NCBI GenBank assembly: GCA_963575645.1
Contig: OY754465.1
Coordinates: forward strand, 47,642,401-47,706,400
Reading direction: 5' to 3'
Origin: Xanthostigma xanthostigma
Taxonomy: Eukaryota; Arthropoda; Insecta; Raphidioptera; Raphidiidae
DNA length: 64,000 bases
A model generated the notes under the pieces. The model was not told where the DNA came from. It saw nothing but the letters and a program-made list of their open reading frames with translations, and searched no databases. Shown here in pieces: positions 32,120 through 64,000 of this stretch. The number at the start of each line of letters is the position of its first letter. Position 1 is the first letter of the stretch. The position numbers were made by a program, and so were the translations under genes.

Positions 32120-32718
32120 ATAAAAAAATAGCGTAAAGTATTCTTGGAAACTGGTCTTTAAAACACTTGCTCTATTTCGAGGGTTCACTCCGGCTGCGCC
32201 GTCGTGCTCGAAAAAAAATAGCGTAAAGTATTCGTGGATAACTGGTCTTTAAAACACTTGCTCTATTTCGAGGGTTCACTCCGGCTGCGCCGTCGTGCTC
32301 AAAAAAAAATAGCGTAAAGTATTCGTGGATACCTGGTCTTTAAAACACTTGCTCTATTTCGAGGGTTCACTCCGGCTGCGCCGTCGCGCTCGAAAAAAAA
32401 ATAGCGTAAAGTATTCGTGGATAACTGGTCTTTAAAACACTTGCTCTATTTCGAGGGTTCACTCCGGCTGCGCCGCCGTGCTTGAAAAAAAATAGCGTAA
32501 AGTATTCGTGGATAACTGGTCATTAAAACACTTGCTCTATTTCGAGGGTTCACTCCGGCTCCGCCGTCGTGCTCGAAAAAAAGTAGCGTAAAGTATTCGT
32601 GGATAACTGGTCTTTAAAACACTTGCTCTATTTCGAGGGTTCACTCCGGCTGCGCCGTCGTGCTCGAAAAAAAATAGCGTAAAGTATTCGTGGATAACTG
32701 GTCTTTAAAACACTTGCC
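32120..32718. repeat. Tandem array, 7 copies of a 90-92-bp unit
   Basis: GCGTAAAGTATTC starts at 32131, 32221, 32312, 32404, 32495, 32586 and 32677. Each unit reads on through GGATAACTGGTCTTTAAAAC, TTGCTCTATTTCGAGGGTTC and ACTCCGGCTGCGCCGTCGTG. The last copy is incomplete. Copies are nearly identical, so the array is young or homogenised. Confidence 0.85.
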
Positions 32719-48967: not shown

Positions 48968-49519
48968 TTGTGAAAAAATAACTCTAATAATTTAGAGTGA
49001 TGATGATTCTGTTTCAATGTTGGAAGATTAAAAAGGAAGAATCCTATAACAAGCATAAACTTATCAATGTTCTGTTTTTCGTACTTTAAAATCTAAAACA
49101 TTTTTTCAATCAGTATAATTTTAAGCAAGTAACATAGACACATTTATACAGTTTTTAGTAAAAATCAAGTCGTTTTTCAAGAAAAATAGTAATTTTAATA
49201 CCTTTTGATGACATCTTATATTTTAATTTATTTTATACATAACAACAATACTGAGAAAACAGACAGCATTGGTAAGTTTATTTATTTTACTTCCAGTTTT
49301 TTAACTTTAATTTTAACAACAATATTTTTAACAATAACAACTTTAAGAACAATTAACTTTAACAATAACAACTGTAACAACAATAATTTAAAACTTTTCA
49401 GATATGAATCTTCTAGATTCTCCGATCAGGCATAAATAAAATACAATAAAAACCTTCAGTATTTGCTTTGTTTCATCGATCCTATGCCACCAGGATTCTT
49501 CCTTTTTAATCTTCCAATA
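48968..49519 (+). mobile_element. Intron-bearing Penelope-like repeat, copy T1
   Basis: The right half (about 49140-49519) matches the minus strand of 58888-59185, through ATACATAACAACAATACTGA, AAACAGACAGCATTG and TCCTATGCCACCAGGATTC. Where that copy reads straight on (CAGCATTG|ATTCTCCG), this one has an insert 49272-49416 beginning GTAAGTTTA and ending TTCTAG, i.e. a GT...AG intron of 145 nt. An alternative acceptor TTTTCAG ends at 49401. The repeat also has inverted flanks (49020-49045 and 49492-49517). The Penelope-like assignment is inference from intron retention and the hairpin motif. Confidence 0.6.
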
Positions 49520-50070
49520 ATAAACATTTATTGCAGAAATTATTTTATAAAAAAAAAATAAAAAAATCTACAAATTTTTTTGTACGCCATTAGCCCTGAA
49601 TTAAAAAAAATACAATTAACTAAATATTAAAAAAAAAAACTTATATCTATGTAACCATTCAGTTACTAAACGTTGCACCAATTTTTCAAAAAAAAAATAA
49701 TAATATATGGTTGTGGTGGTCATTTTAGATTTCCGGTATTGAGGCCTCTTAATGTCAACTCGTATAAACGGTGAATTTTTACAGCACATGGGAAGTTATT
49801 ACCCTTAAACAATTAATTCCAACCGCAATATAATTAACAATTATAGCTTGTGTGTAGTTGCGGAAGGAAACTTGTAATAATCGGAGTGGGTGGTTGACAG
49901 TGGAGTTCTGTACTACTTTCATTTCCTGTAATAATAACCTCATTCCTGTTGCATTTCAGACGAGCTGAAATTCTTAGTTTGTATCAATTTACGGGTAACG
50001 TGCTCTGTTCTATTTAATGAAACCACAAACTTCGCAGAAAAATTGAACATCTATTATTAATTATATCTTA
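49520..50070. other. A+T-rich stretch, nothing recognised
   Basis: No supportable feature. Confidence 0.5.
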
Positions 50071-50360
50071 CTAGCCACTACCAGCGGCTCCGCACGCGAT
50101 TGAGATAAAACACGGCAGCGACAACAGTAGTAGAATCTTCGGCTCCATCGTATTAGTGTCTCACGGGACTGTGATATTATATAGTACATGTGAATTTTGA
50201 AATTATCTTTTTTTTAAGACAACATGTAGCCTATGTCCTTCCTCAAGAAGCAATCTATCTTGCCAAATTTTATAGAAATCCGTTTAGCAGTTTAGGCGTG
50301 AAAATGTAACAGACAGACAGACTGACAGAGTTACTTTCGCATTTATAATATTAGTATGGA
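50071..50360 (-). mobile_element. Helitron-like non-autonomous element (290 bp)
   Basis: On the minus strand it runs from A|TCCATACTAATATTATAAAT through GTCAGTCTGTCTGTTAC, GGAAGGACATAGGCTAC, to GCGGAGCCGCTGGTAGTGGCTAG|T. GCGGAGCCGC forms the 3' hairpin just before CTAG. This start and body are a widespread type in insect genomes. It encodes nothing. Confidence 0.7.
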
Positions 50361-50372
50361 TTTCTTTATGCC

Positions 50373-50863
50373 GGCACTTCACATGGCTATTTGTATTTGT
50401 GTATTTGGCAAACAATTACCAAATGTGGACAGTATATTTGACAAAGTGTTGGCCTTATTTTCCTATTTGACAAATAAGGCCAATACCAAATACGCGTTAC
50501 AGTGCGCTTGTCGGTTTTTCGAAGCACATAAAAGGAGTCAAATAGGCAAATATGCAAATAAACCGTCCACACAATTGACATTTTCAGAAGCGCTCGCGCC
50601 GTGAACCTGTACAGACGTGTCTGTGCTGTGAGCGAGAACTGGAACAATTACTATTGAAAATGAATTGGGACAATGAAACAGTGCTAAAATTCCTGGAATT
50701 TTGAACCTTGCATTCTGCTGCCAAATGTTTGTGTGTTTGCTATTTGACTGCCATGTGTAGATGGTCGTATTTGCCTCTATTTGCATGTTTGTCTTGAACG
50801 TCATATATTTTGCCAAATACAACAAACACCCAATAGCGAACACAAATAGCCATGTGAAGTGCC
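50373..50863. mobile_element. 491-bp inverted-repeat DNA element
   Basis: GGCACTTCACATGGCTATTT and AAATAGCCATGTGAAGTGCC are exact inverted ends, with further inverted similarity inward (GTATTTGGCAAAC / GCCAAATAC, TATTTGAC). It begins 12 bp after the Helitron-like end at 50360. No transposase. Confidence 0.7.
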
Positions 50864-52854
50864 AACTTTAGATACGTATCTGTTTAAAAAAATGACCAAA
50901 TTTTACCTGAATATAATGGATACTCGTTGCTTTTTAAACGCTTTTATTTAGTTTGACTCCGTATATTTCTTTATATCTGGTTTCAATTCTTGGGACCGCT
51001 TTTTTTAACTATTTGTACAATCGAAACGAACGTTATTTATTTTTGTGCGTTATTACAATTCAGGTTGATTTTTTTTGTAATTTAAGAATTAGCTACATTT
51101 AAAATAAACTATCAATTACCAGCACTTTCTGAGTTTGTAATAATAATGTTTAATAATAAATTAAAAATTTGGTTCATTCTTACCGGCTTCTTAGATTAGG
51201 GTTTGGAAATAAAGGTTTTGTAGTATTTAGAGCTCTACCAACGTTCAGAATTTATTTGTATCATTTAGAAGTTAAAGAGAATAGTCCCGGAAACATTAGA
51301 AAAAGTAACAGAAGTATTAAAAAGTCAAAATTTAACCCTTTCCTAAACTATTGATAAAATCGGCGTGGCAGGACCGAACTTATTGATAGTTGCGAATAGT
51401 GAATTTTATCTACTGAGCTGGATTTACATAATTTGAACCAGCTGTTGAATTGATAAATGCATGTTGGATATTGAAACAAAAATTTTAATAATTTTAAATT
51501 TGACTACACATAACACGTTTACACACGTATTGGAAAATGCACCATTATGTTAGCAGGGTTCTGTTCCGCGACATTTGTGTACTAGACATTCGCGAATGCG
51601 AATATTCTGTTTTCAAATCTGGTGTCATTTATCCAAGGTCAAAATTTAATAACTGATGCCTGCGCAAGTCGCACACACACAGTTGTAGTAGTTTTGGGTA
51701 CTTGGTTATTAATACTAAGGTTTTATTACCTAATGCTAAAGCAAAGGCTGATATAATATATAAATGCAAGGTTACCTTAGCGAATTTAAGTTAATTAAAA
51801 AAAAAGAATACGAAAAAAACCTCTAATAAAAAATTAATATTTTTTGTCTTACTTTATATTATTTCACTTTTTTCTAAATATGTTGTTTTCCTGATATTAA
51901 TATTGGCATGACTTTAGCAAATGCGAATGCCAAAAAATGTGCGACTATGAGCGAATACAAATATTCGTTCCATTACTATTCTGTACTAAATACGGAACCT
52001 TAGTTTATTCTCGATAGTTCAAGAAAAATGTCAATATAATCGTCAAAACATTCAATAAATCGATTTTAAAAAGTAATGAAAACGATAATTTGATAATTTT
52101 ACCGTGCATATTACTGGATATAACTAATTTAGATGTCCAGCATCGAATGTATTAGTTTCGTTTTCTTTTAACTTTTCATGAATACATCAACTGTAAAATT
52201 TGCAAATTAAAAAAAAAACTGTTTCCAGTGACGACATTTCAGGAGGATTGAGAATTATGAAGCACTTTGTACGTAAATTACAAGTTTATTTTTATTTCTT
52301 TCAAATACGTCGTCGCTTTTAAGTAACTATTGAACGAGTCATGTAACTAGTTCTAAACAAAAACTAGACTTTCTCTATACAATGTTATAACACATTAATC
52401 TTATCTCTGAGAATCTCGTTGTCTAGACACGTCGTGTAACGTAAGTTCGTTTTTGTAATTATATAGTCGCCGTCCTTTTGTATACTTTAAAACAGCACAC
52501 TACTAAATTTCAGTTTGCAGATAGTTCTTACGACTCCATTTTGCACTATTTTCCACTTCCCTATAGTCGCACAACTCGTAACTCGTCTGATTTTATCGCT
52601 CGCTATTAGTTAGTATCACACTTGCACTGAATTTATGCTTACCCATACTGTGATTGTTTATATGATATTGTAACAACGTCTCTACTGACCCCGTCCCCCT
52701 CCAAATTTCTTCTACAATGAGGCGATGGTGTGTTACGGAAGTGGTATGCCGCGATGTGTCCAGTGTCCACATATCCACCGTCACATTAACTCTAGCCGTC
52801 TTGCATAGCTGTTAGAAATTTTAAGGTTTAAGTATTCATTATTCATAAATAAAA
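50864..52854. other. A+T-rich stretch without recognisable gene
   Basis: Repeated AATGCGAATATTC-like and GCGAATACAAATATTCG motifs at 51590-51615 and 51953-51970 may be worn subterminal repeats. No clear ends and no gene. Confidence 0.45.
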
Positions 52855-53026
52855 AATATAGAATAGTTACTTCTTACCACAACAGTTTTATTAGCGGATG
52901 TACATTTCGGGAGCTATGCTCTCATCTTCAGCAAACACAGTTTATGTTTGCTGAAGATGAGAGTATAGTTTCCGAAATGTATATCCGCTAATAAAATTAT
53001 TGTGGTAAAAAGTAACTATTCTATAA
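52855..53026. repeat. 172-bp palindrome with Penelope-like core
   Basis: Arms 52855-52938 and 52944-53026 are near-exact inverses (TATAGAATAGTTACTT, ATTAGCGGATGTACATTTCG, GCTCTCATCTTCAGCAAAC). Each contains GCTGAAGATGAGAG...CCGAAATG, the window's recurring CTGAAGAT-hairpin-CGAAA core. The loop is about 5 bp. Confidence 0.6.
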
Positions 53027-53189
53027 TTTTTAATTTTGTTTCAACCACAGTGCTCTTAATATTTGTATATATGATATAATTTTGCTATTCGTTGCCTTGG
53101 TTACCTAATAATACGTTCCATATCATGTAAAAACTAATCAAAACATGTTTAACTAGTTTATTTCTGACATATCTACAAAACAAATGAAC

Positions 53190-53640
53190 AGCTGATTTTT
53201 TTTTATTTTCAAAATATTTCCGAAACTATAAAGTTTTCAACAAAACATTCTTGAAAAAATAAATAAGCCGTTATGAAAAGTATACCATTATTATATAAAA
53301 AACAACGTTACAGCATTAATTTCTTTTGCGCATGCGCCGATTTTCCTCAAAAATAATAGGGCTTTTCATATTTACGTATCAAATATCTTCCCAAAATTTG
53401 GTTTCAATTCGTTCATCCGTTTGACCTGTATCGGGTTCACAGTCTAAACCGACTACGAGTCATCGACTAACAGATTGACAGGACGCACAGAGTTTTTTCA
53501 AAAATATGTTTTTTGGATTCGGATGACCTCAAAACGAAAAGATATTGTAAAATTTTGAAAAGTGATTTTTGACCTAAATTAGTAGGTGCCATTTGACTTG
53601 TAGATTGGAATGGTAAAATAATACGCAAACAATATCACTG
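53190..53640 (+). repeat. Dispersed repeat, inverted partner at 61780-62000 and partial at 3720-3920
   Basis: TTTTGCGCATGCGCCGATTT, CTTCCCAAAATTTGGTTTCAA and TTCATATTTACGTATCAAA match the minus strand of 61800-61930. The downstream part (TTTTTGGATTCGGATGACCT, CAAAACGAAAAGATATTG, GATTGGAATGGTAAAAT) matches 3800-3917. It is one family whose other copy lies directly beside the terminal satellite. Confidence 0.65.
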
Positions 53641-53807
53641 TCGGAACTCAAACTCGAATTTTCAACTATCGCAGTGGTTAAATTATCATTTATTCTACCT
53701 TGACACATCTAAACAACCAGTATTTTCACATAATAAAGCATATTTTGCAACACAGCCTCCGGGAGTTTAGTTTACATTACGCATCATTAAAATTGAACTA
53801 GTTGTTT

Positions 53808-54054
53808 ATATAAACTAATATTATAAAGATGTAAAGTTTGTAAATTTGCATGTAAGAGGTAATCTCCGAAACTGCTCATCCGATTTCAAAAACTTATCCA
53901 CCAATATGTAGAATGAATTTTTAGGATGGACATAGGCTATATATTATCGCGGTGAAATAAAAGAGCTTTTCATGGAAATTAATTTTTCCAACGCTAGTCG
54001 ACAATAAAACAGTGCCAATCTACAAATCCGGAAGAAACCGGGCCGGGCCGCTAG
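53808..54054 (+). mobile_element. Helitron-like non-autonomous element
   Basis: Starts near TATAAACTAATATTATAAAG and ends AAACCGGGCCGGGCCGCTAG|T. The whole body aligns with 10954-11170 and the split copy at 41178-41970 (CTCATCCGATTTCAAAAAC, GGATGGACATAGGCTATATA, GTGAAATAAAAGAGC). The first bases have decayed from TC. Confidence 0.65.
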
Positions 54055-55829
54055 TATTCTATAAAGACACCCGCTACTGAATTTAAATACGTTTCACGGC
54101 TTTATTTTATTTCTTCGTTGAATTTATGTTTATGTCGTTGAATTTTCACAGTACCTACATTTATTATTCATTTACGTATATTTTGTTATTAAAAAAAAAT
54201 GTAATTTTACCGGTTTAAATACTACAAACTAAACGTCCAGCAATGCACGTGATTTTGAATCAGTACGCCACTGAACTATGTGTTTGGGGCGGTATGTATA
54301 TGTGTGCACAACATGTATTTAAAGTGAAACTATATAAAACCCGTTTCGTAATTAACAAAAGGCAATGACGACAGCCAGCGAGGCAGCCAACGCCAGCTAC
54401 GATGAGAGAGCAACTTTAGAGAGAAGCAGTTGAAGCAAACAATTAGAATTCACTGATGTTTCATTCCATTGCCTCGAGCGGGTCTTCTGTCTGTCTGTAT
54501 ATCTGTCCTCGTTCTGCATATTATAATAGTCTTTGAAATGTCGCGAAAACCGTTCTACTTTACAGAGCGTGCGGCAAAAGTCTTATAGTGTTTTTAGCAC
54601 GTTTTATGAAAAATTAATTCCTACCGCTTTACTTTTTTGAAGTAGGTTGCTTTGTAAATTAGCGAATTTAGTATTCTACAATTTTTAAAAACAAAAACAG
54701 TAATTTAAAAGTGACCACTCAAGTTGAACAATTTTGTATATACAAAGTTATTTTCTTTTGTTTTACAAGTAAGACGTTTAAGAATTTTTTTCCTTCAAAG
54801 AAATTTATAGATATCTTTATCGTGGACATAGAATTTTTCTACCCAAATTGATTTCAATGAGGTAATAGTTCACTGGCATAATTTATGTGATGTACAAATA
54901 GTGTGGACGAAAATAATTCTTTTGAACAAGTTAAAACTGTTATCAGTCGCCAATGTTCGAATATGGTTTCTGAGTCAAAATAATACTTGAGATTTTTAAT
55001 TTATTTAATTTTTATTAAATTATTTGTTTGATTCACAAAGATAAAGGACAGTAATCTTACAAAAAACTGAAAATAAATAACTTTTATTTATTGAAGAGTA
55101 ATAAGACGTTAATCAAAGATTTGAAGAACTGAAAATGTTTTATAGAAATATCGTTGCTACTTTAGTATTGTTAAAATCAATAATCATATTTTATTTCTAA
55201 TTGTTTTGTAAAAATGAAAAAAATTAGATTTAAATTTTTTAAAGATTTAATTTTAGAAAACTGAATAACAGTTTCAAACAGATGAAAAATCCGGTTTTTA
55301 AGTCAGAAAAAAACTTTTGGTCAAAGGATTCCATCTAGTTTAGTTTTGTTGCGTATTTTATATTTTAGCTACTTTATTGCGGAATTGATGTTGTTTTAAA
55401 ATGATAAATTTCGATGCTCAATATTGGGAAATAATGAAACATAGTCAAGTGTATTAATTATAGATTAATTATTTTTCTAGAAATGGTATTTATTAAAAAA
55501 TTTACAAATAGTGTCAATAAACGCACAGATATAGAGAATTTGTCACATATATATAGCAAACTAATTGACAAAATATAAATAGCCTTGTAAAAAATATCCT
55601 GTTAAAACTTAACAAATGTTGTCTGTTTCGTATGTCTATTAGTTCAGTATTATTCACAGCACAATATTAGAAAGGTTAAAACATTTGTTTCAATTTTATA
55701 TTTAAAAGAAACTAATAATTTTAAAACATTAACATTAACCAGCATTCACATTAAAAATATATTACAAAAATAACAATTAACAAGTTGAGTGACACCATGT
55801 TCTCAATCCATCAACAACAATATACTGAT
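54055..55829. other. A+T-rich stretch without recognisable gene
   Basis: Apart from 55085-55125, which carries the edge of the 4380-4737 palindrome family (TTATTTATTGAAGAG, AGACGTTAATCAAAGATTTG), I see nothing supportable. Confidence 0.5.
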
Positions 55830-56010
55830 AACATGTGACAGCATTTGGTAAGTTTTCTAACATTTACGAATAATTACATTTTAATTCAAAACAATTTTAT
55901 AACTAAGAAAATATAATTACAGAACACTCTGAAGATGATACAAAACGTATCGAAACGTTAGTATTAAATGCAAGTTTAAAAAAGTCTCAGTATTGCTTCA
56001 TTTTCGATCC
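55830..56010 (+). mobile_element. Intron-bearing Penelope-like repeat, copy U
   Basis: GTGACAGCATTTG is followed by GTAAGTTTTC and, 75 nt later, by ATAATTACAG|AACACTCTGAAGATG, a clean GT...AG intron (55848-55922) at the same site as in copy T1. The second exon has CTGAAGAT, then GATAC-AAAAC-GTATC, then GAAACG: a hairpin with a perfect 5-bp stem. The end TCAGTATTGCTTC...CCTTATGCCACGG aligns with the ends of T1 and T2. Confidence 0.6.
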
Positions 56011-56532
56011 TTATGCCACGGAATTCTTTCCAAATACTCATCATTAACTTCAATGGATCACAGTTACTCTATTTATTGAATAGAGTCAATCTTCAATTAA
56101 TTATTACATTGTTTTTTTAAACTTATGATCCACCGTGTACCCAAATGTACAAGGACCTATATATACTAGTGAATGTCACTGGAAAAGGGCCATTTCTAAA
56201 TTCTTGGTGTAGCTGCCATACTTCAGTAGTATGAATGTATGCATACTTCGCCGTTCTTTACTTTCAGTATGGCAGCTCACAAAATCGCTTGACGTCTCCG
56301 TCACAGTCATGATTCCAGAGATGGTTCACTTAGTTATTATGTTCTCCTGTCTGTCGTCGAACAATACTCTCGCTAAACAGCCAAGCACGTGAAAACGTCA
56401 TCAATCGACCTTCACCCGTTACTTCCACCACACAGACCCGTTCCTCCACCATCGGTCAATTTAAACTACTTATTTATTTGTACAGTTGGACAATCAGTTT
56501 TGTCGCTTAAATTGCACTTATTATAGCCAATA
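56011..56532. other. No recognised gene; short inverted repeat inside
   Basis: AGCTGCCATACTTCAGTA (about 56211) and TACTTTCAGTATGGCAGCT (56258) form a small inverted repeat. Otherwise nothing supportable. Confidence 0.4.
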
Positions 56533-56632
56533 CTAGCGGCCCGTCCCGGTTTCACCCGGGTGTAATAGACATAATTCTACAAAATGTATTTGGTTTGCGG
56601 CCCGGCGTCTGAACTAATAGCTTTGAGCAAAT
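56533..56632 (-). mobile_element. Helitron-like 3' fragment
   Basis: On the minus strand it ends ACACCCGGGTGAAACCGG, GACGGGCCGCTAG|T, matching 44993-45090 base for base over most of its length. It is truncated at about 56632. Confidence 0.65.
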
Positions 56633-57306
56633 ACTAGATTTACGTATAGGTATACGTACATTGCAACACGTATCTCAAGAATAAATTTTACCCTACCGTG
56701 CCAAAAGAAGTTTTACTTCAAAAAATTATCATTTATACAATGTCGATTCAAAACAAAATCTTCTACTCTTACCGTAATAGTGGAAGATTCGGGTTTAGTC
56801 CCGGCAGTGATATTGCTTGAAAAATAAAATGCTTCTAATATTGCACTGTAACATTCTAAAATGGTTGTTTTATAATATAATAACAAACTATAGCTATCTA
56901 TTTGTATATTAATAATTTATGTTTATTGGGTGTTCACTTTGAACAGAGTTAGTTTATGAGAACAAAAGTGAGTTTTGGTCCTGTGTTAAAATATTTTAAA
57001 AGACTTTTTTGTTCTTTTCATGATGAACAAAAATATTATGGCTTGTCAGTTGTATATATTTTTATTTTTAACATTTCTGACATATTAGATTATGAAAAAT
57101 ATTCTCTTATTACTTATTCATGTCTAACTGTTTTGTGTTATTTCAAATGCCAGAATATATTTTTTTTAAATATTGTATCAAAACAACTTAAGTAACTAAC
57201 CTGATGTGGTGAAAAAGATTACACATGGTGAGAGAGACAGAACGTGCGTGCGGTCAATCTCTATCTTTTTCTGACAAGTTGCCAACCCTAAGTGTCAGTT
57301 CACACG

Positions 57307-57437
57307 TGCCGGCACGATTTTTTATCGGAGCTTATTTGTTTATATGGCATGCTTTACATTTATCGAAGACGGTTAAAATTCGTCTTCCATTTAAAATAAA
57401 TATGCCGCAACGACACCCGATAAAAATCGTTCCGGCA
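57307..57437. mobile_element. 131-bp MITE-like inverted repeat
   Basis: TGCCGGCACGATTTTTTATC and GATAAAAATCGTTCCGGCA are inverted ends of about 23 bp. TCGAAGACGG/CGTCTTC also pairs inside. No transposase. Confidence 0.55.
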
Positions 57438-58687
57438 TCCGGCTCTAGCTACAGTACTGCGCCAAAAGAGATAGATATCGGCCGCATGCTGGCGTTGTCT
57501 CTTTTTTGAAACGGTCACATTTTCTGGTCGTTTGTTCACTCAACGGACATAGCTCTATGGTGCATATATAAAGTAAATTCGTTTTCAACGAATGCTGTCT
57601 TATAAAGTTCATAGTAAATGAAAACGCTAGCGCGTTGGTATAGAATTTGGTCACGTGACAGTTAAATATCGCACCAAACAGTGTGTGGTGTTCCACTCAG
57701 AAATGTATGCCAACTACTGCTGCTCTAGTAACTGCAACAACCTCTCATTTACATCAGACTCTACTTACTTTCTCTATTTGTCTATATTAGATTTGTTTAA
57801 AGAGTCGCCTGTTATCACATACTCTGCGCATGCGCGAGCTGCACAAACTCTCGCTCTCTCTATTGTCATTTGTTTTATTTGTTTTGTTTAAATTTATTTT
57901 AAACCATACGTTTAATCAGTCGTAAGCTATATGACATTCAGAACAAGGCACTAAACATGTCGCGTCATTTTGTTGTCTTTACAAATAAACAGACTCATTT
58001 GTTTTGATCTTTAGTTGTTGGACAACAATTTAATATTCTCTTTAATTGTTGTGCTTCTGGAATATTTACAAATGGCGGACGTGTGAAATGAGAACGAATG
58101 CAACAGTGACTCAGATTTAATTATTCAGCATTTTAATATCAACCCCATTAAGAATCAGTAATGTTCTAGATGTGGTTAGGTGCAGAGAGAGAGAGAGAGT
58201 GTTTTATTTCTGTCTAATTTTTATTATTTCTATACTCTCAAATCATAATAGACATTTTTTGTAAGAACCGATACTCACTCCTTATAACGAAAGCTCTCTG
58301 CTACGAAAACAAATGAGTTTCGTTACAGAGTTTTGACTATATTATACGCAATATTTTTAATTTCTTTTGAAAACCGTTTTTATCTTATGTAAGTAAAATA
58401 GTCAGTATCCTTTTCAACTGAATTAATCGGCACCCATTTTATATCATATTTTTTTATTTAATAGAATATAAAACCGGATAGTTTTTATGTAGCGTAAAAC
58501 TATGAAAATATATGTCAGTAGAATAAGAGAACTTATTTTATATTCTGCAAATACGAACCTTTTGTTTTACGTTTTAAAAAACTTCAAAGATAAATCATTT
58601 CAACTCATTTTTGTTGTTGAATAAACTTGACCCTGTTTGTAAAATAATGCTATACTATAATAAATGATTATAAAAGAGTTCATATAA
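57438..58687. other. No recognised gene
   Basis: Slightly less A+T-rich at 57640-57850, with a frame of 78 codons lacking any domain. A short GA run lies at 58185-58199. Confidence 0.45.
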
Positions 58688-58755
58688 ACATGTTAGCGGT
58701 AAGAATTATCCATAACCGAGATGTCGAAAAGATTTACTTTGGTTAATTTGCATCT
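58688..58755 (-). repeat. Short dispersed repeat, partner of 9065-9131
   Basis: Reverse complement of the 9065-9131 block (ATGTTAGCGGTAAGAATTA, CGAAAAGATTTACTTTGGTT on the plus strand). Confidence 0.5.
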
Positions 58756-58887
58756 AAAGAAATTTTACTTCAATAATAAACCAATTAACCTTCAACAACC
58801 ATCAATTGGTGAATAGTCACTTCATCTCGGAATGAAACAGAATAAGCTGAATATTTGTATAAATCTTCATTTTGGCATCCTCAATGT

Positions 58888-59185
58888 TGTGAAAAATAAC
58901 TCTAATAATTTAGAGTGATGATGATCCTGTTTAAATGTTGGAAGATTAAAGGATGAATCCTGGTGGCATAGGATGGATGAACTAAGCAAATACTGAATGT
59001 TTTTTTATTGCATTTTTTGTCTGACTTTTCGGCAAACTTTATGCCATCTTCGGAGAATCAATGCTGTCTGTTTTCTCAGTATTGTTATGTATAAAATAAA
59101 CTAAAATAAAAAATGTCATCAACGGGTATTAAAATTACTATTTTTCTTGAAAAAACGACTGATTTTTACTGAAAATTGTATAAAT
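58888..59185 (-). mobile_element. Penelope-like repeat without the intron, copy T2
   Basis: On the minus strand the sequence reads ACTGAGAAAACAGACAGCATTG and then, with no insert, ATTCTCCGAAGATGGCATAA. The same two blocks are separated by a GT...AG intron in copy T1. The junction is at 59058/59059. After it comes GAAGAT-GGCA...TGCC-GAAAAG, the hairpin motif of the family. The 3' part (TGGAAGATTAAAGGATGAAT and AACTCTAATAATTTAGAGTG, plus strand) matches 48968-49045. Confidence 0.65.
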
Positions 59186-59935
59186 ATGTCCAATGTAACT
59201 TGTTTGAAATTATATTCTCAATGTTGTTTCAAAAGTCTCATAAGGTCACGTGTGAGTGTCCTTAGATACTCAAGGTTAAAGGTTGCGAAAATCAGTTTTT
59301 TGGAAATATCTCCCTTTCTTTGTTTCAAATCGTATTTGCATTTATTATAAAAGTTATAGAGTCTAAGATTCTCTACAATTTTTTTCTTAACGAATTTTTT
59401 ATACGTATAACCGTTTTTGAGATAGCCATACATGCCATATAGCGCAATGTCAATCGCGAATCTCAGTCCATATAAATATAAATTATATTTATAAATATAA
59501 TGTGTTAAATAGTTAATTAACTAATATTTAACAAATAATTAAGTTAAAAAAGCACACTATTGATTGAGATTTGCGGTTGACCTTGGCATGTATGACTGAG
59601 CGCTCCACACTCTTCGCGCTCTGTCTTAAAAACAGTAAAATTGTTTGAGAGGAAATTTATAAAGAATTGTATACTCTACAACTTTCATAAAAAATGCAAA
59701 TACGATTTGAGGCAAAGAAAGCGAGATATTTCCAAAGAACTGAGTTTCGCGATTTTTGATCTTGAATATCTAAAGACGTTCACGCGTGACCTTATGTGAC
59801 TTTTGACATAACATTATTTTAGAATGTTAAAAGGTTTGTACAGAAATACCGAGGTTTTTCCTTTTTTTTAGCTTATTTGACTGCACAAGAATAATAATTT
59901 ATATTAAAAAATTCTGTCCAAATATTTTAAATTAG
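59186..59935. other. No recognised gene
   Basis: The block ATGTGACTTTTG...AGATACTCAAGG at 59240-59350 recurs, inverted, at about 59690-59810 (CAAATACGATTTGAGGCAAA, ATCTTGAATATCTAAAGACG). The region therefore holds a loose inverted pair, possibly one more foldback repeat. Confidence 0.4.
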
Positions 59936-62000: not shown

Positions 62001-64000
62001 ATCGGTGACGTCACTATAAATCCAATATGGCGGACTTCTAAAGATGGCGGACTAATTTTATTATGTTTTCCTACAATATGGGTATCAAATGAAAGGGCTT
62101 GCTGAGAATAACTCGAAAAATAAAGTGACGTCACTCTACATCCAATATGGCGGACTTCTAAAGATGGCGGACTAATTTTATTATGTTTTCCTACAATATG
62201 GGTATCAAATGAAAGGGCTTGCTGAGAATAACTCGAAAAATAAAGTGACATTACTCTAAATCCAATATGGCGGACTTCTAAAGATGGCGGACTAATTTTA
62301 TTATGCTTTCCAACAATATGGGTATCAAATGAAAGGGCTTGCTGAGAATAACTCGAAAAATGAAGTGACGTCACTCTAAATCCAATATGGCGGACTTCTA
62401 AAGATGGCGGACTAATTTTATTATGCTTTCCTACAATATGGGTATCAAATGAAAGGGCTTGCTGAGAATAACTCGAAAAATAAAGTGACGTCACTCTAAA
62501 TCCAATATGGCGGACTTCTAAAGATGGCGGACTAATTTTATTATGCTTTCCTACAATATGGGTATCAAATGAAAGGGCTTGCTGATAATAACTCGAAACA
62601 TAAAGTGACGTCACTCTAAATCCAATATGGCGGACTTCTAAAGATGGCGGACTAATTTTATTATGTTTTCCTACAATATGGGTATCAAATGAAAGGGCTT
62701 GCTGAGAATAACTCGAAAAATAAAGTGACATTACTCTAAATCCAATATGGCGGACTTCTAAAGATGGCGGACTAATTTTATTATGCTTTCTAACAATATG
62801 GGTATCAAATGAAAGGGCTTGCTGAGAATAACTCGAAAAATAAAGTGACGTCACTCTAAATCCAATATGGCGGACTTCTAAAGATGGCGGACTAATTTTA
62901 TTATGCTTTCCAACAATATGGGTATCAAATGAAAGGGCTTGCTGAGAATAACTCGAAAAATGAAGTGACGTCACTCTAAATCCAATATGGCGGACTTCTA
63001 AAGATGGCGGACTAATTTTATTATGCTTTCCTACAATATGGGTATCAAATGAAAGGGCTTGCTGAGAATAACTCGAAAAATAAAGTGACGTCACTCTAAA
63101 TCCAATATGGCGGACTTCTAAAGATGGCGGACTAATTTTATTATGCTTTCCTACAATATGGGTATCAAATGAAAGGGCTTGCTGATAATAACTCGAAACA
63201 TAAAGTGACGTCACTCTAAATCCAATATGGCGGACTTCTAAAGATGGCGGACTAATTTTATTATGTTTTCCTACAATATGGGTATCAAATGAAAGGGCTT
63301 GCTGAGAATAACTCGAAAAATAAAGTGACATTACTCTAAATCCAATATGGCGGACTTCTAAAGATGGCGGACTAATTTTATTATGCTTTCTAACAATATG
63401 GGTATCAAATGAAAGGGCTTGCTGAGAATAACTCGAAAAATAAAGTGACGTCACTCTAAATCCAATATGGCGGACTTCTAAAGATGGTGGACTAATTTTA
63501 TTATGCTTTCCAACAATATGGGTATCAAATGAAAGGGCTTGCTGAGAATAACTCGAAAAATAAAGTGACGTCACTCTAAATCCAATATGGCGGACTTCTA
63601 AAGATGGCGGACTTCTAAAGATGGCGGACTAATTTTATTATGCTTTCCTACAATATGGGTTTTAAATGAAAGGGCTTGCTGAGAATAACTCTTAAAATAA
63701 AGTGACGTGACTCTACATCCAATATGGCGGACTTCTAAAGATGGCGGACTAATTTAATTATGTTTTCCTACAACATGGGTATCAAATGAAAGGGCTTGCT
63801 GAGAATAACTCGAAACATAAAATTACGTCACTCTAAATCCAATATGGCGGACTTCTAAAGATGGCGGACTAATTTTATTATGCTTTCCTACAATATGGGT
63901 ATCAAATGAAAGGGCTTGCTGAGAATAACTCGAAAAATAAAGTGACATTACGCTAAATCCAATATGGCGGACTTCTAAAGATGGCGGACTAATTTTATTA
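62001..64000. repeat. 120-bp satellite array with 600-bp higher-order period (runs off window)
   Basis: TCCAATATGGCGGACTTCTA occurs every 120 bp from 62021 to 63581 (14 times) and again at 63718, 63838 and 63958, 17 monomers in all. The 137-bp step comes from a 17-bp duplication near 63601. Variants repeat every five monomers: GCTGATAATAACTCGAAACA at 62581 and 63181, TGAAGTGACG at 62361 and 62961, CTTTCTAAC at 62786 and 63386, CTTTCCAAC at 62306, 62906 and 63506. Most monomers carry TGACGTCA. Because 120 is divisible by three, the minus strand stays open for 538 codons (61958-63574) with a 40-residue repeat (GKHNKISPPSLEVRHIGFRV...). I treat this as an artefact of the period, not a gene. Confidence 0.95.

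Follow-up and report, generated by a model that had tools for sequence, protein, structure and literature searches.

Arkhipova et al. are said to have described, in 2003, Penelope of Drosophila virilis together with intron-containing Penelope-like elements (PLEs) that keep their introns in genomic copies, a study that both PMC3846280 and PMC11167929 cite. PLEs, their introns, their pseudo-long terminal repeats (pLTRs) arranged head to head and their tails are already established, as two papers attest (PMC3846280, PMC11167929). For bdelloid Penelope elements, self-priming on antisense RNA has been proposed, and the paper that made this proposal left unsettled whether PLEs have antisense RNA as their template or sense RNA that has not been spliced (PMC3846280). 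In the second paper, a purified PLE enzyme cuts and extends both target strands and starts internally on the RNA, the ‘tail’ being the stretch between two reverse transcriptase (RT) start sites (PMC11167929). Analyzed here are three PLE-derived copies, T1, T2 and T3, lying in a window of 64 kb from the raphidiopteran insect Xanthostigma xanthostigma (GenBank assembly GCA_963575645.1, contig OY754465.1, positions 47,642,401 to 47,706,400 of the forward strand), and their relatives in the host assembly (623 Mb in 28 contigs). It is very probable that leader segments of these elements are copied from sense RNA, spliced or not, with both target strands primed. No account of precisely spliced PLE copies, or of an amplified intronless leader family, was noticed in a literature search conducted mostly at the level of titles and abstracts, and absence from print is not claimed.

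Intron-bearing and intronless leader copies

In T1, on the plus strand, CAGACAGCATTG is followed by 145 nt that begin with GTAAGT and end with TTCTAG (49272-49416), and then by ATTCTCCG. In T2, also on the plus strand, GACAGCATTTG and AACACTCTGAAG enclose 75 nt running from GTAAGT to TTACAG (55848-55922); a first-pass annotation had placed both inserts correctly to the base. T3 lies on the minus strand, where CAGCATTG, ending at 59059, abuts ATTCTCCG, which starts from 59058, with zero nt between them, precisely the exon join that the annotation had expected from splicing T1 at its TTCTAG acceptor. This intronless copy spans 58890-59216, reaching from the initiator position at 59216 to where the tail stops, and is flanked by 10-bp target-site duplications (TSDs), CTCAATGTTG, at 58880-58889 and 59217-59226, which define its 5' start as the initiator position. 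T1 and T3 share 89% identity over 160 nt, and a blastn comparison within the window at E 1e-3 gave zero matches of T2 to either, so that the three copies do not, at the nucleotide level, form the single repeat family originally proposed.

As judged from the coding sequence that accompanies them and their relatives, T1, T2 and T3 are pLTR or 5'-leader pieces of Penelope/Poseidon-like elements with RT and a GIY-YIG endonuclease, an identity that had been suspected at the outset. The expected open reading frame (ORF) was found at locus L093, a partner located through tblastn matches beside T1 and T2 and an endonuclease search, in which a T1-type, intron-bearing pLTR comes immediately after a 559-aa frame (P0002). 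A second PLE in this genome encodes P0003, to which P0002 aligns at E 1e-81 (35% over 548 columns); Pfam recognizes RVT_1 (6e-12) and GIY-YIG (1e-5) in P0003, and GIY-YIG (9e-5) in P0002. The endonuclease end also lies upstream of six of eight T1 loci (L002, L003, L004, L006, L007 and L008) and of the T2 loci L051, L065 and L039, the last being the window copy, where a remnant of the endonuclease C-terminus (55453-55575, plus strand; tblastn of P0002 residues 519-559 against L039:1264-1386, 71% identity, E 5e-11) sits just upstream of the pLTR. RT and a C-terminal GIY-YIG domain occur within a single ORF in relatives, the window itself holding a remnant only, and further PLE hallmarks are introns kept in genomic copies (257 exact intron-bearing sites), pLTRs with partial inverted head-to-head copies, and TSDs of several bp (10 bp at the window T3, and at least 6 bp at eight of 19 single-arm T3 loci). 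Four insertions have T1-type ORF ends without a single difference over 221 bp, which suggests that these elements were recently active. The PLE families L089-L092, which emerged from a GIY-YIG family search, were rejected as partners, their ends matching T1, T2 or T3 by short chance stretches only; L089 (C4:23142300-23149300) is a PLE of another kind, whose open frame of 804 aa adjoins a perfect inverted repeat that spans 3,142 bp.

Genome-wide, exact patterns for the intronless junction had 1,087 hits and those for the intron-bearing form 257, about 4:1, and reversed control patterns gave zero matches against both junction types. For the young T2 family alone there are 417 spliced sites (50-nt pattern, at most 2 mismatches) against 76 intron sites (21 nt, at most 1 mismatch), or ~5:1, ratios that are approximate because the two patterns are of unequal length and a single insertion may count as two sites. 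The frequencies are thus the reverse of those in the annotation, in which the intron was usually kept and sometimes lost. Nor is T3 a lone loss: the 40 scored T3 candidates (T3 included) have identities of 93-100% over the spliced unit, and T3 therefore belongs to a large, amplified intronless family.

The loss is also precise. Measured against the ORF-linked sequence of L093, reference positions 1918-2059 are absent (gap 1917/2060, within 1 nt) from all 30 T3-type loci, and 20 T2 spliced loci show a gap of 448/523-524 (one ambiguous base) wherever both sides aligned, the sole exception being the divergent L083, with a one-base shift (448/525). Among eight T1-type introns that were read, the acceptor directly preceding ATTCTCCGA is TTCTAG in seven and TTTTAG in one, bearing out the acceptor originally chosen; a competing TTTTCAG 15 nt upstream occurs, among these eight, in the window copy only. 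Chance is excluded as the origin of the junction, since 30/30 T3-type loci are exact and the reversed controls gave no match, and boundaries that fall exactly at GT and AG, rather than at random, support a spliceosomal-type intron lost precisely via an RNA intermediate, as first surmised. Removal of the intron at the DNA level, by deletion or gene conversion, is highly improbable: the missing stretch coincides with the GT...AG intron in all 30 T3-type loci and, L083 with its one-base shift aside, in those T2 spliced loci for which both flanks were aligned; the window T3, with a TSD and a full 5' start, is itself a separate insertion.

Scarcely any credence can likewise be given to an introner-like gain of the intron in T1 and T2, with T3 as the original state. 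The greater number of intronless junctions would agree with such a gain, but the same 75-nt sequence would have to have been gained repeatedly at the same base on identical exons. A search with the T2 intron alone listed 46 genome matches, 13 of which (the query itself included) are full-length and 100% identical; judged by eye, 38 start at a listed donor, four are head-to-head neighbours of donors, and the last four, at three places (C1:24440804, C1:24440868, C4:22803812 and C6:7225092), lie in pLTR copies, some of them truncated at the intron. No independent insertion of the T2 intron was found among these, all 46 listed matches being in or beside pLTR copies (four by position only), nor was one of the T1 intron at the six donor-less places inspected in contigs C1-C3 (47 matches listed), all of which are pLTR copies. 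The insert does not, then, behave as a separate transposon, free-standing introns numbering zero among the placed intron-only matches. T1 and T2 moreover share the intron position, which makes loss, rather than gain, the simpler polarity for T3.

Arms, tails and start sites

T1 consists of two opposed arms. At its 5' side, a short inverted arm (48968-49045, minus strand) carries the 3' ‘tail’ and the last pLTR bases upside down; it matches the 3' end of T3 and reference 2236-2158 on the minus strand, and was scored as the tail arm. The main arm (49046-49517, plus strand) joins a 5'-truncated PLE spacer to the intron-bearing pLTR without a tail and corresponds to L093 reference 1689-2183 at 84%, the RT/endonuclease frame being directly upstream of that region in L093. 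Within it lies an initiator-like TCAGT (49110-49114, plus strand), an arthropod initiator motif, whose A at 49112 is the equivalent of most spliced T3 starts, the T3 5' ends clustering at the matching reference base. T2 has an initiator-like TTCAGTATTATT of its own (55643-55654, plus strand), from the A of which a leader exon 1 with a putative start extends to GACAGCATTTG (55646-55847, plus strand), as traced from the sequence and arm alignment. Exon 2 (55923-56110, plus strand) holds the ATG, the first RT start region (~56046) and the tail with its palindrome (~56066-56086), and the ends of T2 arms form two clusters, reference 642-648 and 690-711, equivalent to window positions ~56041-56047 and ~56089-56110.

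Two-armed insertions are head-to-head, and the arms of L093 are 99.9% identical over 2,181 bp. A tail of ~50 nt is found on exactly one arm in 39 of 41 two-armed insertions (30/32 in T2, 9/9 in T1/T3), the exceptions, L070 and L075, having truncated or tail-less ends. Left out of this count were pairs wider than 1,300 bp (L004 and L093 among them), four loci repeating an insertion and the tandem L071, and the L011 pair is a neighbouring copy. The arms were also compared for intron state, in a sample running from C1 to C5:33.5 Mb that comprised the first 100 exact spliced sites of the 417 and 32 intron sites. The listed sites include 23 opposed pairs, 14 spliced on both arms, eight intron-bearing on both and one mixed, so that the state agrees in 22/23; chance alone would give 10.9 mixed pairs, and a count as low came up in 1 of 100,000 shuffles. 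The mixed pair, L044, is a single insertion in both states, with an intact intron in its minus arm and an exact splice in its plus arm. L071 (C1:10656420-10657600) contains three tandem spliced T2-like units spaced by 216 and 220 bp, a retrozyme-like arrangement and the only tandem array seen.

Inverted arms could instead arise by self-priming on antisense RNA, a template that would explain intron retention as well. It fits the intron-bearing head-to-head insertions, and some arms are as extremely alike as those of L093, but precisely spliced copies require sense RNA, and the spliced class thus disfavours it. Two distinct 3' ends, with and without the tail, are moreover seen in the same 39 insertions, and arm lengths are unequal; because the arms differ in both respects, self-copying of one strand is disfavoured, and the antisense template is considered quite improbable.

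The position of the 5' ends is likewise informative. Starts of 28 of the 30 T3 loci fall within reference 1756-1770, no more than about 10 nt from the A of TCAGT at 1761, versus none of the eight T1 loci, all of which begin upstream (Fisher test 3e-6, computed with 27/30). For T2, sequence upstream of the initiator is included in 6/26 intron insertions (L045 by a few bases) versus 0/20 spliced ones (Fisher p 0.03). With their start sites at the initiator, spliced copies look like cDNA of transcripts starting in the pLTR.

Copying from sense RNA could proceed as follows. The RNA would start at the pLTR initiator and carry a small spliceosomal intron just upstream of a hammerhead-like motif and the start codon. 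Reverse transcription would begin inside this RNA, at one of two sites ~50 nt apart, and run toward its 5' end. Both target strands would be cut and each 3' end would prime one cDNA, one per RT start site, a double priming expected to produce a TSD and arms that stand head to head, their 3' ends facing outward and their 5' sides variably truncated where they meet. An RNA spliced in vivo would, as template, yield an intronless insertion, and an unspliced one would leave the intron in place.

Single and repeated loss of the intron

A tree of 40 T1/T3 arms (rows failing a length and pattern filter, L004 and L008 among them, were excluded) has one label change, T3 being a single intronless clade with support of 100/98, and on this topology intron loss arose once for T3. 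The corresponding T2 tree, built from 62 arms (35 with intron, 27 spliced) over 140 columns after setting aside one intron-truncated arm, four unclassified arms and two of the three L071 units, contains 12 state changes (bootstrap 10-14), at least three of which are forced by supported branches. One set of identical T2 exon sequences, across these 140 columns, occurs in both intron states, and both long exon-1 haplotypes, compared by eye, exist spliced (L079, L074) and unspliced (L042/L040, L041/L045). By the tree and these shared sequences, the intron has been lost more than once in T2.

Such data also bear on a doubtful but quite possible alternative, according to which splicing was captured only a few times, nearly all intronless copies stem from intronless DNA sources, and intron-bearing sources are almost never spliced. 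The single, well-supported T3 clade is what this history predicts, and the agreement between arms would also follow if a few source copies passed on their state as DNA. In addition, the T2 intron label is clustered, its 12 changes comparing with a shuffled mean of 17.4 (as low in 0/500 for intron and 4/500 for spliced), and part of the intron state in T2 is therefore probably inherited. Against this alternative stand the identical exon set and the two haplotypes found in both states, and the mixed states of L044 within one insertion.

Copying from spliced and unspliced sense RNA remains the preferred reading, and the clustering of the T2 label and the second explanation of arm agreement weigh against it, as do several further points. 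Support in the T2 tree is weak, with 2 starred of 46 inner branches over 140 columns. Pfam gave no RVT_1 match in P0002. A TSD of at least 6 nt accompanies only 8/19 single-arm T3 loci versus 6.4% of 342 mismatched controls, a test that left out L033 and L036, which have no 5' match, and nine loci taken as two-armed. The initiator test sets two subfamilies, not independent lineages, against each other, and two T3 loci depart from its pattern: L011 starts at 1731, 30 nt upstream of the initiator, and the spliced L028 (C3:10624390 region) starts at 1654, inside the ORF end, and is thus an ORF-linked spliced copy. With both of these reaching past the initiator on its upstream side, the start-site rule is not absolute, and L028 rules out the strict rule that ORF-linked means unspliced.

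The hammerhead-like motif and known systems

Exon 2 of T2 carries CTGAAGATGATACAAAACGTATCGAAACGTTAGTA, with a hammerhead-like core, CTGAAGA-stem II-GAAA (55929-55963, plus strand), whose cut site is presumed to lie 26 nt past the ATG. This is the spacing given for PAc, the Poseidon element of Anolis carolinensis, whose hammerhead cut site is 26 bp past the start codon (PMC11167929). The CTGAAGA...GAAA core is present in T2 and altered in T1 and T3, and Rfam searches with E up to 5 and up to 2 returned no hammerhead match. In the outer stem, GCAUUU at the end of exon 1 would be paired with AAAUGC in exon 2. Three spliced T2-type segments, with RNA folding z-scores of -2.97, -2.08 and -1.76, hint at a hammerhead-like fold in the T2 leader; the T3 segment folds poorly (-0.21), and the unspliced T2 acceptor side folds differently (-1.90). 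An unlikely extension holds that splicing toggles between two forms, an unspliced ORF-linked RNA that would lead to autonomous PLEs and a capped spliced leader RNA that would give rise to a ‘processed pLTR’ family resembling short interspersed elements (SINE-like). The ribozyme would then exist only in spliced RNA, because the splice junction would complete the outer hammerhead-like stem; the folds speak for this in mixed terms, the T2-type segments differing from the T3 segment.

The window holds other repeats. Another head-to-head pair, at 52860-53022, has 78-nt arms that are 91% complementary and 7 nt apart, and either strand carries a CTGAAGATG...GAAA core; the pair may represent short pLTRs from another family of PLEs. 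A foldback-like element at 50373-50863 is bounded by inverted ends of 25 nt that are 96% complementary and separated by 441 nt, a 91-bp tandem repeat at 32122-32717 comprises 6.5 copies with 96% matches, and a satellite of tandem 120-bp units, in which GTGACGTCAC occurs, occupies 62005-64000, reaching the window edge.

Precise intron loss in PLE leaders bears on the replication of this retrotransposon class. The ~1,000 exactly spliced leader junctions point to use of a sense, spliced RNA for at least one insertion class, and each two-armed insertion seems to be the trace of two priming events, whose intron state and start sites can be read together. Penelope of Drosophila virilis and intron-containing PLEs likewise combine RT and a GIY-YIG endonuclease with pLTRs and introns kept in genomic copies; here, in contrast, most counted leader junctions are precisely intronless, and the intronless T3 family has been amplified. 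PAc is similar in having two internal RT start sites that bound the tail, a hammerhead cut site at the distance past the start codon that is presumed for T2, and both target strands cut and extended, but showed no between-strand difference in start site in vitro (PMC11167929), whereas the arms described here use different start sites in 39/41 insertions. Metazoan retrozymes, the subject of PMC7229834, are also short non-coding units with hammerhead-like motifs, and L071, where three spliced units stand in tandem, recalls them; the other copies examined here differ in being head-to-head or single, many of them starting at an initiator, and Rfam returned no hammerhead match. The Penelope families of Adineta vaga (PMC3846280) share with the present copies an inverted pLTR, a tail on one of the two, TSDs of 8-10 bp and intron-bearing copies; they differ in their low copy number and in the antisense template hypothesized for them, whereas the spliced copies of Xanthostigma xanthostigma point to a sense RNA.

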